Source: Apostichopus japonicus (Eukaryota > Echinodermata > Holothuroidea > Aspidochirotida > Stichopodidae). Taken from it: a DNA stretch of 64,000 nucleotides. Numbering within the stretch: position 1 is the first letter of the stretch; each line of letters begins with the position of its first letter. The notes beneath the pieces are model-generated. The model did not search any database. It was not told the origin of the DNA and saw only the letters and a program-made list of their open reading frames with translations. A program made the position numbers and the translations under genes. Shown here one piece after another: positions 6,841 through 62,600 of the stretch. The stretch spans positions 14,766,178 through 14,830,177 of the forward strand of contig NC_092579.1 of NCBI RefSeq assembly GCF_037975245.1, read 5' to 3'.

Positions 6841-7270
6841 AAAGTGCCTTAATCATAATTCTTGAAGTTACGGGACGCCCGAAAGGTGGAATTGAACCAC
6901 TCTGTCGCTAGACAGCTACAGGTTTGAAGCCTGCACACCACACCAGTGAAGCTCATCCGGGCAATTATTAGGTTTGACAGAATAGTATATATATGACTAA
7001 AATTTGGGGACGATGATATAAACTTGGATAAAACATTTCTTCCCAAATATGCACTTTGATTTAAATCGAATTTATTTTAATACGTTTCTTCTAGACGCAT
7101 GTTATCACATTGCCTTTGATATATTTTTAAGCCCATGTCAGTGGAATTTATGCGTATTTGCAAGAATTTAACTTAAAACTATAATTATTCATTGACGTAA
7201 CCATTAAAATGAATATTCAAATATACAAATACCAACGAATTTTATAAAATAATAAATTAATTGTCATTTA
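6841..7270. other. Intergenic, AT-rich, nothing recognised
   Basis: The region is AT-rich, with no exon or RNA gene that I can support. Confidence 0.55.
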
Positions 7271-7309
7271 GCCTTTGAAGAAGATCCTGCTAGGATCGAA
7301 ACGTCAGGC
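7271..7309 (+). ncRNA. Decayed hammerhead ribozyme motif (Penelope-like element type), copy 1
   Basis: The parts are in hammerhead order: stem I strand gcct, a core close to CUGAAGA, a stem II hairpin (gatcct-gct-aggatc), GAAA, a minimal ACGU stem III, C17, then aggc closing stem I. Hammerheads with such a minimal stem III are known from Penelope-like retroelements. The core here reads uUGAAGA, so the invariant C3 is U and cleavage is probably impaired. It is likely a remnant of an element's terminal repeat. Confidence 0.65.
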
Positions 7310-7778
7310 CAACTTCCAACTAAGGGCGACATATAGATGTCTCCCTATGTGAATTTAACTCTTTCACATCACCTAGGTCGACATCAGCATCAAATAACAC
7401 TAAGGGCAACATTGGCGAATTACTGTTATTTCGTCACATTGAACCAAAGTTAGGACTCCAGTATGGGTACTATCAAAAATAACGATAGAATTTAGGTAAT
7501 GCGGCTTTACAGGGCCCAGGACAGGCCCCGAAGGGACAGTGACAAGTTTACATTCATCTGCCTAAGCATATAACATTGGCATTAAAGATTCAGTCTGTAA
7601 AACAAACCAGCATCCATCTATAGATATTCGCCAGAAGTGCACTTTCTCTATTCTGCTGTCGGGCCAAGTAAAAAGAAAAGTCGACCAGGTGTACTGGGGT
7701 GCACCAACAGTGTACCGAGGTTCACATCCAGTGTACTGAAGCATATTGGGGGCAACTAGCCTACAGGGTGCTAAGGTA

Positions 7779-7801
7779 CACCCAGTGTAGGCTACTGTGT
7801 A
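7779..7801. repeat. Left target-site duplication of the U2-headed retroposon (23 bp)
   Basis: This 23-bp stretch, beginning cacccagtgtag, recurs at 8001-8023 with one mismatch. The two copies exactly bracket the insert at 7802-8000. Confidence 0.85.
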
Positions 7802-8000
7802 TACTTTTTAAGAAACAAAATTCGCCCAGGAAAGAACCTGGGCACGAAAACCAAACTACCGAACGACTGATCCGCTCTCAACACCAGTCCCCTTGCATCG
7901 GGACTGTGACTGTGTGATCATCGTCGGGTGTGCATCACCATTCCCCTCGAAAGGGAACAGATACGTACACATGATCTTAGCCAAAAGGCCGAGAAGCGAT
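7802..8000 (-). mobile_element. U2 snRNA-headed retroposon (SINE-like), 199 bp
   Basis: On the minus strand the insert begins precisely at 8000 with the conserved U2 snRNA 5' end (atcgcttctcggccttttgg and onward through taagatca). It stays U2-like for about 45 bases, up to the branch-site recognition region, which is altered (guacgua where U2 has guagua). The rest is not U2. It contains hairpins ccctttcgaggg, agtccc-gatgcaag-gggact and gcccagg-ttctttc-ctgggc, then an AT-rich 3' end. The insert is bracketed by a 23-bp target-site duplication. Flush 5' end plus duplication show LINE-type retroposition of a chimeric RNA. SINEs with snRNA heads are known but uncommon. The origin of the 3' body is unknown to me. 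Confidence 0.82.
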
Positions 8001-8023
8001 CACCCAGTGTAGCCTACTGTGTA
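8001..8023. repeat. Right target-site duplication of the U2-headed retroposon (23 bp)
   Basis: Matches 7779-7801 at 22 of 23 positions and abuts the U2 5' end. Confidence 0.85.
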
Positions 8024-9190
8024 GGCCTATTGGTGGCGTTCATATAAAGACCCTATAGTAGGTCCCTCTTACGTCAAATCCTTCATTTCAACCACATATC
8101 ATATGGCGTTAACAGATGTATAAAATAAACGTATCACCGTGTCCAATTATAGTGTGAGGCGTATTCTAGTTTGTGTTAACACATTGTTTACTTGTTGTTA
8201 TTATGACGTCACACAGGGCTCGCGTTTTGGTGGTTTGCTCTGTGTTGTGGCGGGCTGTGAATCACGCGTCATTAGAAGCGTATACAGATGTTTTGTTTTG
8301 AATGATTCGTGTTGTGGGGCTGGAAGACAGCCAAATTGGTTTGAGTGCTTATTTGCATTTGCTCATCTGCATATCGGGTTGGCACTCGCAAATCAAGAGT
8401 TGGGTGAGAGGTCAGCTACAAGTTTGGACCAATCAGGTCAAAAGGCAGAGCGTGTCCTGTGCTTGTTGTCGTAATTTGTTATTATAGAATCGGGGGGTTT
8501 GGGTTTGTCTCCCAAAGACGTATCGGGCCGGGAGTTGAAGTTTGTCTCTCGAAGCCTACAGACGTATAACGAAGGGCTCCGTAATTTATATTTATAATCA
8601 GCATTTATCCTCGTGTATTTTAACCACACAAAGTTTTAGTTGTATTCATCATTAAGATTATATACCAAGAGTTAATAAAAAGAAACAACTTATAATCAAA
8701 TATCCGCTTTTGAAGACTTTTTATGAAGACTTTCATGTTTACGCTCGGTTTAACGATACTAGTGTAAGGCCCGGCTTACCGTTACCAACTTATACCTGGA
8801 ACTATCAAAAATAAGCCTTACAATAGCATATTGCACATATGAATCAAAGAAAGGTTGGAATATTGGTCAACTGATGTCAGTGAATTTGGTGGCAGTGGAG
8901 TCTGGCAATGAAAGGTAGCCATCTAATTATCGTGATATTTCAATAACTATCCAAGCATATCCTAATACCATGGCAACAAAGCAGAGAAGCAGTAACACAA
9001 CAAACTGGTAATTAGAGAACTCGCCATATTGTCATTAAAATTAGTTGAGCCTTCTTACCAATTATTCCTTATTAAATATTTCCTTCAAATCTAAATTACA
9101 GTTCGTGATAAATCAAAATAAAACAAAAACTGTTAGCAGACTGCTTATCCACTAGAGAGCCTGTGTAAGAGAATGTGTAAAAGTAAGTGG
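8024..9190. other. Intergenic, nothing firmly recognised
   Basis: A palindromic CRE (tgacgtca) lies at 8214-8221. No exon with family resemblance was found on either strand. Confidence 0.5.
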
Positions 9191-9229
9191 GTCTGACGTT
9201 TTGATCCTAGCAGGATCTTCTTCAGAGGC
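9191..9229 (-). ncRNA. Decayed hammerhead ribozyme motif, copy 2
   Basis: Same family as 7271-7309, on the minus strand: gcct, intact CUGAAGA core, stem II agatcct-gct-aggatc, then AAAACGUC. The invariant G12 of the GAAA box, the proposed general base, is A, so catalysis should be lost. Stem I closure is also imperfect (agac instead of aggc). Confidence 0.65.
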
Positions 9230-10858
9230 TGAACGACAGTACATAATGGCAGTTGTCTCGAAAGGTTTGATTACCCCTTGGAGAATTAACTTTTCCAAAC
9301 CACAGAATACTTTGTTGTTGTTACATTGTGTATGCCTGTGCAGTAAGCTGATGTATCGTCAAATATATTACTACGATTTTTATTTTCGGTGAAAATAATC
9401 TTATTTCTGAAGTACTTTCTTGCGATGTGTTTTTTTTCGTACAAATGTCTGATAGTTGTCTGTTTTTCAGAGAGAAAGCTGTTGCTACCACATAGGCAAG
9501 CTCATCGGTGTATCTGGCAATATTCATGCAAACCTTTTCCTGAAAAGGAAAATTTCATACTTTACTTTGCGATTATGCTACAAAAATGTCCTGCCTTTGA
9601 AGTTGACAAAAGTGATAAGATAAAATCATCATTAAACGAACGGCGGTAAAAAAAATATATGTGACCATAGGAATCAATTGCCAAAAAGCAACATTTCTTA
9701 CTTCCTAAAAACCTGTCAAATTTCCAAAAAGTTTAGTATCATGACTGTGAATTTGCGACAACTGTATTCATTGGATAACTCGTTCTAGATAGCCGAGTAT
9801 TCAATCAAACCATGACATCATCAGTCATCTAACGTCAGATCACTACCGGTTACTTTTAAGAGGTTCATGTGGAGTGAACCAATAAGAGAAAGGAAACAGA
9901 ATCAATACAACAAGAAGACCAAAAAGAGAATTGTCATATTTTTTGTTCTGTTTAATGTTTATAGCAAAATAAAAGAAGGTTCACAACTGCTACCATTGCA
10001 TATGGAAACAAGCAATTGAATTATGCATTGCATATTCAACATTTAAATTAGTTACAAATGTAGAAGTACTTGCTTAATGTCGCCTGTGTAAAACATTGTT
10101 CCTACATCGGTCAAGACATTCATACCTGATAATGTGATGATTCTTTTGACTGAACATGCAAAACATACAATCTTTACACCTGTCTTTCGTCCAAAGATGG
10201 ATAAAATTCTTGTAGTGTATAGTTCACTGTTAATCGAGGCATTGGCAATTTGCCTCTCCAAAATAACTGTTATCGGCTAACTAAAAGTTTAACAAATTGA
10301 TATTAGTAACAACTTCATTCCCAAGGTTTATATGCAATTGAGGCAAGGACCTAATGTGTAAAAATCTTTGTTCAAACTGTTGCAGGCCTACGCTCACCTC
10401 CAACTAAATGTGACCTCCGAACAATACTGAATTTAAATTGGGTGCATGTGGCCAGCGGTGGAATACAGTTGAATTCAAAAGGGAACTAGCTACAAGCATT
10501 GCAATTATTACCATAGAAGGAGTTCAAAATGTCTGATGCCATCACAAATTTACTTCCACTTACAACAGTTCCTTCTTATAAAATTGTACTTCTTCTGACA
10601 ATTCTTGATTCCACGCCAAGTCCTTGTCAAAAATGTTCTTTCATTTCCATTCAGATTAAATTTTTAATTGGATTATATTAAATGCCAACTATTTTCAAAT
10701 GTTTGGTACCACTTCATAAATTTGATTGCTGGCATCCAGTATGCGAATCGAGCCAATTTCCTTAAACAATCATCCGTGTGATTATGACATAAAACAGCTA
10801 TCAGAGAATTGCACCGAGAGTGTTCAATCTCGTCATCAGATCTCTACTTTTGTTAGTT
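9230..10858. other. 3' flank of the MAD1 gene, including presumed 3' UTR
   Basis: No coding sequence was recognised. On the minus strand an ATTAAA lies at 10663-10668, about 190 bases after the MAD1 stop. It is a plausible but unproven polyadenylation signal. Confidence 0.4.
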
Positions 10859-25487: not shown

Positions 25488-26022
25488 CTGTAGAATGTTC
25501 AAAGTTTCATAGGAAATAATTGGTACCAGTTATAATTAATTGATACCAGTGACATGTCAATGTTCATACAGACCTTGTACAGAGATATCTAATAGCCACA
25601 TAATTCTTGTTATTCAGCATCAATTGAAAAGGCATTGTATGTATTGCAATTTCAAACTTTCTTCAAATCAATACAGTACCTCTGTTGTTTAAGAACAGAC
25701 ACAATTCCACTTTGCAATTTTTGTATCAAAACATATAGGCCTAGGCTAAAATATAAAAATAATATCTGTTTCTCCTCAGAAATCAACCTCATGAATTTCA
25801 CATTCATTCCACTTATTATAGTATACTGTGTTGCAATATGTATGGTGAACCCCTCAACAGTACTTCTACCGACAGGTGTTTGGCCTTGCTAAACTTAAAT
25901 TTCTAAATTACTGTAGGTCAAACAGATAGGCATGTCCATTAGATCTAGCATAACTTAGTAAAGTTGAGTTTAGTTCTATCATCTATGCCCATATTATTTC
26001 GTGTAAAACTAAAAGTAAGTGG
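25488..26022. other. Upstream of MAD1 coding start, nothing firmly recognised
   Basis: This should be MAD1 intron leading to an upstream 5' UTR exon. I could not identify that exon or a promoter. Confidence 0.4.
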
Positions 26023-26061
26023 GCCTGACGTTTTGATCCTAGCAGAATCTTCTTCAGAGGC
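26023..26061 (-). ncRNA. Decayed hammerhead ribozyme motif, copy 3
   Basis: Same family as copies 1 and 2. Stem I gcct/aggc is paired and the CUGAAGA core is intact, with a one-base change in stem II (gattct). The GAAA box is again AAAA, losing G12. The flanking word aagtaagtggg is shared with copy 2, so these are two insertions of one repeat family. Confidence 0.65.
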
Positions 26062-30359: not shown

Positions 30360-31236
30360 TAGGGTTCTCGAGAAAAGCTGTTTGAATACGGGATGAAAGT
30401 GAACTTCGCTAAGACTCGACGGCAACTTTTTTCTAAACGTTCGTTTGACGATTTGTGAGTTAGACGGAGGAGAACATAATTTTCTGCTAACCTTTATTCA
30501 TAGAGTCAAATGAACACAAAAAACCTTTCTAAAACGGATTGACCAAGAACTAGTTTACCCACAACCGTCAAAAGAACGAAAAGAATCGCTATAAAATCTG
30601 CCAAATATTAAGTTTTTTTTTTCCTACACGAAAACTTTGTTTATGTAACCAATGCTGATCAATGGTTTCAATATGCATGTGTGGCGAAAGATATGAATGG
30701 TTCATTTTTTTTATATTTTGTGAATGCATCTGACCACAGCAGAGTGAATGGTGTTATCATGAAATTGAACTGTAATGAGTGTTTTTCTTGATAGTTTTTA
30801 ACCCAATTTAGAGCATAAAACATTTTTGTGGGGGAAAGTTACATTTTGATAATATTCTAAATCCAAAGGATATTGCTAGTAAAAAAAAAAGAGAAAAAAA
30901 AGGAAAGATAAATCAACGAGAATATTATAACGGAACGATAAAGATTTTAAACTCATGTCATGACAATGATGACACCCATACCATACTGAGTGTGATCCTC
31001 TTCTAGGAATGAGGGAGGATTTGGCCTTTCAAAATTGGATACATTTCAATCCACCATGTGAACAAAATATTGAGAAGCAGCTTAGTTGTAGCAACAGAAT
31101 GATACATTTATCTATTATTTATTTTTTTGGTTTTCCTTTCTTTTTCTAAGATAAACGTTGTATTTTACGTCTTCTGTAAAGAAGGGGTTGTCCCTGTGGT
31201 CGTTGAATCGGAATTCCATGTGGAGGGCGAGGAAGG

Positions 31237-35530: not shown

Positions 35531-54605
<19,075 letters not shown>

Positions 54606-59659: not shown

Positions 59660-62600
59660 TCAGGTCAATCCATACAGTTTGAGCAAGGCATCTGGTTTAG
59701 GGTCGCGACCTCTGAACTTGTTGAAGACTTCAGTCGGATGAGTTCCACCGCCGAGAGATAGAATAGTATCTCTGAACCTTTAGGCAAATAGAGGAGAGGA
59801 CAGTTGCAAAGCATCTCAAGATAAGAAAAAGTTTTTCAATATCACAAATGGTAGGGCCCGATGAAACTTCCGACTCTTGGCTCTTGTAAACCATAACCCT
59901 TTGTTACATAATGTTACGTTATCAAGTAATTAGATGGCTGATTGGCTATCCTCGCTAGACAAGAACGAAAAAAGTTTCACGGCATTGCAGAAACAGTGGA
60001 TGTGCTCAAAATTCATTTTTCAGTATTTTACAATTATATATTGTAAAAAATATATTACTTATTTATTACATATATTATTATATATTTATTATATATTATT
60101 TATTTGATTAGAAAGTTTCAAAAAAATTCAAAGTGTGCATTATTATGTTGAATGAAACTGACCAGTCAAAGAAATGACCTACAGTGTAAGGGATATTTAA
60201 TATCAACTAGTCAACTCCTTTAATAACGTAGACCTTACCTTCTTCCAACTTTGGATAGATTTTCATCGTTACTAAGACCAGCTTCCTCAAAGGCACTGAA
60301 TGCATCTGCTGCTAACACCTGATTGTCAGAAACAAAAAGTTATTCTTACTGAAAATTTGTGCACGGTGAATCTTTGCTTATTTTATATTGTTATTATTTA
60401 TTATTATTATTTTTGGCTTATTATATTTAAGTAAGGGAGCATAGCCAAATCTAGTCGGTGCCTGGTGCCGCGCAAAACTTCTGCCCATTGTGCTGCTACT
60501 GAATATTCTTCACGGCCCAGTGACCACAGTACTGAACTTGGCAAGTTAATGCGGCAGCCGTTGGTTTGGTCTACGGACAAGTAACAATAGGCTTTCATAG
60601 CAACATGAAAGAGTGACAGAAATTGATGAATAGGAGCTTACTTGCTCAGTCTGTCGCAACCTATCAATGGTCTATTGTTCGCATTCATTGTGCCTTGGTT
60701 TATTGTCGTCCAATTGTTTCGATATTCCCCTTCCATAATACTGACATCCCATGATTGTGTGTAGCCTAACACCACACTGAAGTCAATGGAAATATCTAGC
60801 ATAACTTTAGTGATAAGATTTCTGCAGCGACGGTATTTTTACAACAGGCACTTTTACGGAAATTTCTGCTGTATCACTTGCGAAATACTGAAAACATCTA
60901 GCGAAGAAGAAATCCATTTCAAGGGGTTGATATATAGATGTAGAACTTACAAGTGAAGGCTTTAGATTGTTGCCGGGCGATCGTTGCACTTATCGCGGAA
61001 ACAATAGTGTCGGTCCTGTTATTGTAGTATCAAACCCCTTTCATTGCGATTGCCCGCTTGTCTTTGGCTAACGATTGGCGCGCCAATTTATTTGATTTCC
61101 TATTAAAAAGGGTTCCGGTCACATTTGAGCATACTGATTGGTGCGGTCAATTTTATTTTTAAATCGATCAAAATGCAAGACAACACTAATCCTTAACACG
61201 TTGTAAACTTGTGAGGCTTGTATCTATCATTACTGGGATACATTTCTAAATGAATAGTCAATAATCGAGTACCGTGCTTTAAACACTCTGCTGAAATAGA
61301 AAGATCCTATCTACATTAATACTACATTGGATTTCGTCGTCAGACAAGTTGCTTCAAAATATTCTTCCGAACTCGTAGTATCCTAAACTGAGACAGGTTT
61401 TACCGGCATGGCTGAAATTGGAGTCCGTTGGCTAGAACCAGAAAGGTACGTCGGCAAGCGTACATTTGTAAAATTGTCGGACTTAATATGCGATCGTTCA
61501 AAGGATCTTCCGTCTGGAACTGTTGTTAAAGCTAAATGGAGGTCAACTGGCCGAGTTTAAAAGGCAACGCTTTTGAACAATCTCATGGCGAAAATTAAAC
61601 GCAAGCAGAGCTCCAACCAACGTCAACCCGCAGTTTTAAGAACACCCAACGAAAGTGAGCCTGATTCGGATGACGATATGACCCTAGCATACCAGAGTGT
61701 TACTACTGAGAAAGTTCAACATGAAAAGCATGAGTGTCCTCATGTGAAAAAGCTCCAAAACAAAATCGTTATGCTGGAAGAAACTGTGACGTCAATGGCA
61801 ACAGAACTGAAAGAACTTAAAAATACTCTATCGGAAGTTAATACAAATAATACCCAACAGATCCTAACCGTACTTGAAGCTATTACCCAAAGTCATGACA
61901 CTGCACGCGAAACTCAAAATTTGATGAAAGTCAGGGTCGCAGCTGAAGAGAAAGCCCAGGAACAGCAGAGAAATCTCCTCAATAACAACGGGAAGAGGAT
62001 CCAACCGGCATTTGGTTTGGTAGAAAATGGACTTGTAACTTGTCACAAGAACGGCCGTAAGCTAATATCTGTCGAACAAGAAATTTACCGTCGAATGTTT
62101 GACGATTCGAAGACAGGTACGAGTTTCCTGAGGAAACTAATGAAATGTACATTTTCAGAGGAGGAGCTGGCCGAAAGTAACTTCAGTGGAGGATCGGTGA
62201 TATCAGCGATAGGGACGACCGTCAAAAAATGTCTGGACCGAGATCGCATAATGGCCATCCTAGGTCAGGTCGAACTAGAATTCCCCAACTCAACCAAAGC
62301 GGCGAATTTTACGAGAATGAGAGACGCCATTAACCAAGAATGCAGGAGAGTTGTGCAGCATGTTCGACAGGATGCCGTTTAGAAGTGACTTTTGTGGTTT
62401 TTTTTAATTATTTCTATACAACTCTGCTAACTCTCTGGGACTTGCAAGGAACTTGATGGAACATTCACCTTTCTGAAAATAATTGGGACGTTAATCAGTA
62501 ATTTTTTATAGTAAGGCTTATTCTTGTCTTACTCCACTACCTTTTTGTCTTTCTAAAGATATGTTGTGTTTTATAATGTTATTGGAAGTTTCTCAGAAAG

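Follow-up and report, generated by a model that had tools for sequence, protein, structure and literature searches.

A U2 snRNA-headed SINE family of Apostichopus japonicus with copies inside U2 genes

Introduction

Because snRNA promoters are external to the gene, a retrocopy of the RNA leaves the promoter behind, and how an snRNA-headed SINE is transcribed is a puzzle. This question is raised by a short insert in a 64,000-nt stretch of the genome of the holothuroid Apostichopus japonicus (assembly GCF_037975245.1, contig NC_092579.1, positions 14,766,178–14,830,177; hereafter the window). An initial annotation, made from the letters of the window, described the insert as a chimeric retroposon with a U2 snRNA head. 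Here we describe its structure, its relatives in the genome and the copies from which such an element could be transcribed.

Structure of the window copy

The SINE copy occupies positions 7802–8000 of the minus strand and is 199 nt long. Read from 8000 to 7802, it begins at U2 nt 1, follows U2 up to nt 45 and then passes into an unrelated body, an organization proposed in the initial annotation and confirmed by comparison with host U2 and Rfam U2. The head (7955–8000, minus strand) consists of nt 1–45 of the host U2 gene, which begins ATCGCTTCTCGGCCTTTTGGCTAAGATCATGTGTAGTATCTGTTC, with one extra C at 7965, as placed by the Rfam match, the host U2 genes and the alignment of copies. The motif ATGTGTA in the SINE head is a host trait, since host U2 itself reads ATGTGTAGTATC.

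The body (7802–7954, minus strand) is not derived from U2, is common to the family and has the 3′ terminus AAAAAGTA. The three hairpins ascribed to it are found both in the sequence and in the consensus fold, all on the minus strand: TTCCCTTTCGAGGGGAA, with a long loop, at 7941–7957, CAGTCCCGATGCAAGGGGACTG at 7885–7906 and GCCCAGGTTCTTTCCTGGGC at 7824–7843. The folding energy of the consensus is −75.8 kcal/mol, whereas 200 shuffled versions average −58.0 kcal/mol (sd 4.1; z −4.3); hairpins form within the body. Target-site duplications flank the insert at 8001–8023, on the side of the U2 head, and at 7779–7801, on the side of the tail. They agree at 22 of 23 positions and are flush with both ends, as first annotated; by a simple estimate, a 23-bp repeat that is flush and has a single mismatch far exceeds what chance would give.

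In a local scan, the insert scores 43.6 bits against Rfam U2 (RF00004, E 1.9e-7), with most of the model deleted. The gathering score of this family is 46 bits, which explains why the insert is absent from the whole-window Rfam scan at gathering scores. It likewise falls below the cut-off at which a U2 structure would be counted as a U2 snRNA gene or pseudogene. The branch-recognition word reads GTACGTA in place of GTAGTA. This alteration, pointed out in the initial annotation, is present in the window copy but is private to it and not a trait of the family: the extra C occurs in none of the 43 other SINE rows of the alignment, which comprise 39 fetched copies, one copy beside a U2 gene on C15 and three copies from the U2 array described below.

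Several other features were observed in the window. A tRNA-Sec gene or copy lies at 6877–6962 of the minus strand (77.4 bits against a cut-off of 47), and a 54-nt inverted repeat (89%) is found around the SINE region, at 7262–7315 and 9185–9238, with a third piece at 26010–26061 (96% over 52 nt). The LINE reverse transcriptase frame at 28–2268 of the plus strand (746 aa, RVT_1) is unrelated to the SINE as far as seen. An ATCC tetranucleotide array extends over 1.07 kb (39546–40612, 98% matches), and an open frame at 61573–62382 of the plus strand matches a BEN domain, narrowly exceeding the cut-off. Elsewhere in the assembly, C35 carries an intact COX1, open over 517 codons under translation tables 9 and 5, in the order cox1, nad4L (by eye), cox2. 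Table 9 yields the conserved residues, and this gene order agrees with that of echinoderms. Broken COX1 pieces on C29 represent nuclear mitochondrial DNA or assembly debris.

A dispersed family of about a thousand copies

The initial annotation had proposed a genome-wide search for the insert, which revealed a SINE family. Whole-genome pattern counts, allowing up to three mismatches, yielded 896 long-loop head/body junctions (a set that may overlap the short-loop one), 173 short-loop head/body junctions and 1,043 SINE tails, each against zero in the reversed control. A DNA search with the window copy gave at least 42 matches, namely the window itself and 41 others (from the best 40 of 2,560 candidates scored). 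These 41 matches lie inside positions 21–227 of the query, on the insert and off the duplications.

The window copy belongs to the long-loop subfamily and is 1.0% from the 195-nt consensus. Aligned copies, in a sample chosen for likeness to the window copy, are 1.0–6.2% from their consensus. For a second sample, 39 stretches were chosen from the 100 exact short-loop tail matches listed, and gave 43 alignable copies. The 5′ starts of these copies fall at nt 1–3 (15 copies), nt 4–9 (10), nt 10–45 (11) or later (7), so that 25 of the 43 cluster at the start of U2, within nt 1–9, with truncated copies besides. L109 and L110, a pair in this sample, represent one locus that was duplicated. Of the 82 tail matches from the two samples of copies, 61 are accompanied by a direct repeat scoring at least 9; the remaining 21 have none. 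The family is thus short, non-coding and repeated with a fixed structure, and many of its copies carry a target-site duplication of their own, supporting the original reading of the insert as a U2-headed chimeric retroposon.

Beside the fetched copy L015 there is a second, more diverged one (70% over 117 nt). On C5, eight exact SINE heads on one strand, 3–4 kb apart (11.042–11.066 Mb), represent a duplicated segment rather than separate insertions. Within the window, a diverged relative of the SINE body is located at 44063–44112 of the plus strand (82% over 50 nt); next to it, the opposite strand carries a permease-like open frame. As a gene-derived source of the body this candidate was rejected, for it falls outside the permease-matching part of the frame (residues 84–144 of 196). 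By match alone, it resembles 16 other places in the genome at 74–90%. A scan of IMG/VR for a word of the SINE body gave no matches.

SINE copies inside U2 genes

A covariance search of the genome, in which every candidate was scored, found 46 U2 matches, all above the cut-off. Four of them are on C15 and the rest form a tandem array on C16, with a unit of 645 bp. A census of U2 3′ parts, with one mismatch allowed, counted 89. The upstream junction is normal in 60 of them (56 on C16 and 4 on C15); another 28, all on C16, are interrupted, and one lies on C20. Judged by junction letters, 28 of the 84 C16 units are therefore interrupted, a heavy insertion load on an essential gene family. The SINE accounts for six of the 28. 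Among the 22 SINE-free junctions, nine were read as DNA and are LINE tails, and the others were judged from the junction letters.

The SINE copies in U2 genes are outside the window, in the C16 array. Across the genome, the SINE 3′ end is joined to U2 at eight places (seven exact and one with one mismatch; zero in the reversed control). Six of these joins are in the C16 array, all in U2 orientation, one is on C20, in a U2-like copy whose head is doubled, and one is in a chain of SINEs on C5. The six SINE-interrupted units end ..CTTAAAAAG|TATCTGTTC, which is the published Keno/Utopia site. A 3′ junction with U2 at nt 38|39 is thus found in the six array copies and in the C20 copy, the point being fixed to within 3 nt because the GTA before the junction is common to the SINE tail and U2. 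The family is not strictly confined to U2 genes, about a thousand copies being dispersed.

Three array SINEs, at 31059, 31132 and 31133 kb, consist of the normal U2 upstream sequence, U2 nt 1–45 (with one base changed at 31059 kb) and the whole body, after which U2 resumes at nt 36–39. The flanking unit sequence on both sides is 99.8–100% identical to the array unit. The SINE at 31134 kb is 5′-truncated and has TATCTGTTCTTTTCAGC at either end. The copy at 31006 kb, also 5′-truncated, sits in a U2 fragment behind a LINE and shows the same TATCTGTTCTTTTCAGC duplication. A 5′ truncation together with a U2 duplication of 17–19 bp is the mark of target-primed insertion, and we conclude that these two copies were retrotransposed into U2. 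At 31021 kb, a truncated SINE sits in the head of another SINE. The U2-headed SINE family is real and recently active, and part of its copies lie inside U2 genes behind the U2 promoter. A literature search of partial coverage returned no recognised description of a SINE inside U2 genes.

LINEs at the same insertion point

At the nine junctions read, LINEs inserted in U2 join it at the same point as the SINE. One array LINE, K1, encodes an AP-type endonuclease (Exo_endo_phos) and a reverse transcriptase (RVT_1) in a single frame, with a CCHC knuckle in a different one; together with its insertion in U2, this endonuclease and reverse transcriptase are traits expected of Keno. The K1 C-terminus has at least seven matches at 98–100%, all within the array, among 150 scored. 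Other array LINE families end ..CTTGAAAGAAA(A)G|TATCTG. In the published accounts of Keno and Utopia, U2 resumes after the insertion at nt 39, TCTGTTC (PMC4640811, PMC6136364). The end of the SINE, AAAAAGTA|TCTGTTC, falls on this same point within the 3-nt overlap GTA.

The initial annotation had expected a LINE tail in common with the SINE to reveal the mobilizing partner. This expectation was not borne out: against the LINE ends read, a subset of the genome's LINEs, the SINE body and tail gave only chance matches of 8–13 nt, and none of these ends shares the 3′ end of the SINE. Some SINEs have no tail in common with a LINE. The partner is indicated instead by the insertion point in U2 genes, which SINE and LINEs have in common; no longer homology was seen between their ends, and it is site and neighborhood that link the SINE to a LINE.

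LINEs 29–41% similar to the C-termini of array LINEs crowd at C17:15–25.6 Mb, C16:26–31 Mb and C11:13–14.6 Mb, and exact short-loop SINE matches crowd in the C17 stretch too. A separate LINE family with a poly(A) tail, 43% similar to the C-terminus of an array LINE, is represented by L149, L150 and L153 (on C13, C8 and C15, respectively), with kin on C11 and C18. In three of five ends read, it is located immediately before tRNA-like genes (tRNA identity by eye), and it is perhaps a tRNA-gene-targeting Tx1-like LINE.

Dispersed copies occupy U2-like sites

The pre-insertion sites of dispersed copies were drawn from 82 tail matches in 79 stretches. Dropping 21 without a repeat of score 9 or higher and two duplicates left 59 unique sites, that of the window copy included, which were set in U2 register and evaluated against the composition of the window. 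Two reduced sets hold 55 sites (without four TA-repeat sites) and 47 sites (also without SINE-adjacent sites and two repeated sites).

The 59 sites carry the U2 letter at T37 in 26 cases, at A38 in 54, at T39 in 37 (p 4e-7) and at C40 in 30 (p 6e-8). The preference at T41 is weak (29, p 0.002), and there is none at G42 (6, p 0.98). The strictest set of 47 shows A38 in 42, T39 in 27 (p 1e-4), C40 in 26 (p 5e-8), T41 in 21 (p 0.03) and G42 in 4. Counts at A38, T39 and C40 are 21, 13 and 10 in the head-picked sample (n = 23) and 21, 14 and 16 in the tail-picked sample (n = 24). Dispersed pre-insertion sites therefore resemble U2, with a short preference. That for A38 may stem from the SINE tail, which also ends in A; the site of the window copy has C at this position. 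Certain families of Utopia, too, use U2-like targets that lie outside U2 (PMC4640811, PMC6136364).

Re-insertion beside earlier SINEs is frequent. On C2 (21.947–21.949 Mb), a chain of mostly truncated SINE pieces has TATCCTAT after each piece, and C5 has a chain of four SINEs; both chains result from repeated re-insertion at a single site.

Promoter-bearing copies and alternative origins

A genome pattern search for the C16 U2 promoter followed by the SINE gave five hits, of which three are the array SINEs. The other two, at 31145379 and 31097054, were rejected as promoter-bearing SINEs, both being truncated K1 LINEs. Dispersed short-loop copies are equal to array copies, L126 over 191 of 191 nt and L116 and L122 over 188 of 188 nt. 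The loop is short in all promoter-bearing array SINEs but long in the window copy and in most head junctions. Since the assembly contains no long-loop SINE with the C16 promoter, the source of this larger subfamily was not found; the only long-loop copy seen inserted in U2 is in the U2-like copy on C20. Either the long-loop source is present in other individuals or has been lost, or the subfamily was made otherwise.

Chimeras with an snRNA part are usually ascribed to template switching. By that route the family could be an ordinary SINEU-type element, its head added once when the reverse transcriptase switched from U2 RNA, with the copies in U2 genes incidental and the sources elsewhere. The long-loop subfamily, which has most of the copies and no promoter-bearing array copy, agrees with such an origin. 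We consider it rather unlikely, as the U2 landings share one point with U2-specific LINEs and make up 6 of the 28 interrupted units, and as a known promoter lies upstream only in the array copies, to which dispersed copies are equal. It would also leave transcription from U2 nt 1 unexplained.

Alternatively, the array copies might have arisen not as retrotransposed sources but when dispersed SINEs and U2 genes, by way of the head they have in common, underwent gene conversion or unequal exchange. Heads identical to U2 over 45 nt and the seamless heads of the full-length array copies would be expected from this process. However, the two truncated array copies with their U2 duplications, and a 3′ junction point that is also that of the LINEs, make it improbable as the origin of the array copies. 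Gene conversion could also spread array copies once present.

A cryptic internal Pol III promoter in the body, with the U2 head as a passenger, would be in line with Pol III transcription of most described SINEs (PMC7245038). We give this practically no weight: the best A-box in the SINE has two mismatches and the best B-box four, and 493 and 497 of 500 shuffles, respectively, do as well, in a search that scored tRNA-Gly, the control, at 0 and 1 mismatches. Furthermore, Pol III would stop before the SINE tail, because a T5 run is present near the 3′ end, at 180–184 of the 195-nt consensus. Finally, the single intact copy in the 64-kb window might suggest a processed chimera formed only once, which the initial annotation had named as the alternative, or a U2 pseudogene whose body comes from a host gene. 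Both are refuted by about a thousand copies with the same body, one that no host gene explains.

A proposed mechanism

The DNA structures in the array, the identities between copies, the common insertion point and the site preference are all observed, and they point to another origin that we regard as probable: the head would be the captured 5′ part of the target gene, the U2 promoter would make the RNA, and a Keno-type LINE would move this RNA into U2 genes and, by leakage, to other sites as well. The U2 promoter, which normally serves Pol II, would transcribe the array copies from U2 nt 1, giving an RNA composed of U2(1–45), the body and read-through U2. A U2-specific LINE of the Keno type, suggested by the common site and the neighborhood, would nick U2 near nt 38|39 and reverse transcribe the SINE RNA, and the read-through U2 at the end of this RNA could base-pair with the target at the nick.

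Insertion into U2 would yield further array copies, some of them 5′-truncated with U2 duplications of 17–19 bp, and such products are present in the array. A full-length head could anneal or recombine with nt 1–38 of the target U2, by which the promoter would be regained. Insertion at U2-like A|TC sites, also beside earlier SINEs, would produce the dispersed copies, the window copy among them; these products are likewise observed.

Together, these steps may form a promoter-capture cycle. A promoterless SINE would keep the 5′ part of its target, a full-length insertion into U2 would rebuild promoter, head and body as a new source, and leakage to U2-like sites would make the dispersed family. 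We put this fuller version forward tentatively, leaning slightly against it.

Relation to known elements and implications

SINEU, described by Kojima in 2015, reportedly comprises snRNA-headed SINEs of crocodilians with U1 or U2 heads, and is said to prefer a Mariner element as its target and to be linked to Tx1-Mar. The family described here is likewise a short non-coding retroposon with an snRNA-derived 5′ head, in this case 45 nt of host U2 from nt 1. Set against this description, it differs in its echinoderm host, its U2-like sites and its copies inside U2 genes. With Keno and Utopia it has in common the insertion point, U2 resuming at nt 39; those elements are protein-coding LINEs, whereas the SINE is non-coding and keeps the 5′ part of U2 as its head. 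SIDEs are short internally deleted R2/R1 elements in fly 28S rDNA that are thought to use the promoter of the host gene. Both they and the U2-headed SINE are short non-autonomous elements in a multicopy RNA gene, but SIDEs stem from the ends of their own LINE, while the body of the SINE matches no LINE end read. The family is thus of the snRNA-headed kind, and what is new is that some copies reside in U2 genes, downstream of the U2 promoter.

SINEs that sit in U2 genes with the U2 promoter upstream, and that are identical to dispersed ones, offer a concrete and testable answer to the question of how an snRNA-headed SINE is transcribed. If the promoter-capture cycle is true, the snRNA head would serve at once as target homology and as promoter adaptor, and the same cycle could explain other snRNA-headed SINEs too. 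The finding would add a SINE to the LINEs and DNA transposons that live target-specifically in multicopy RNA genes.
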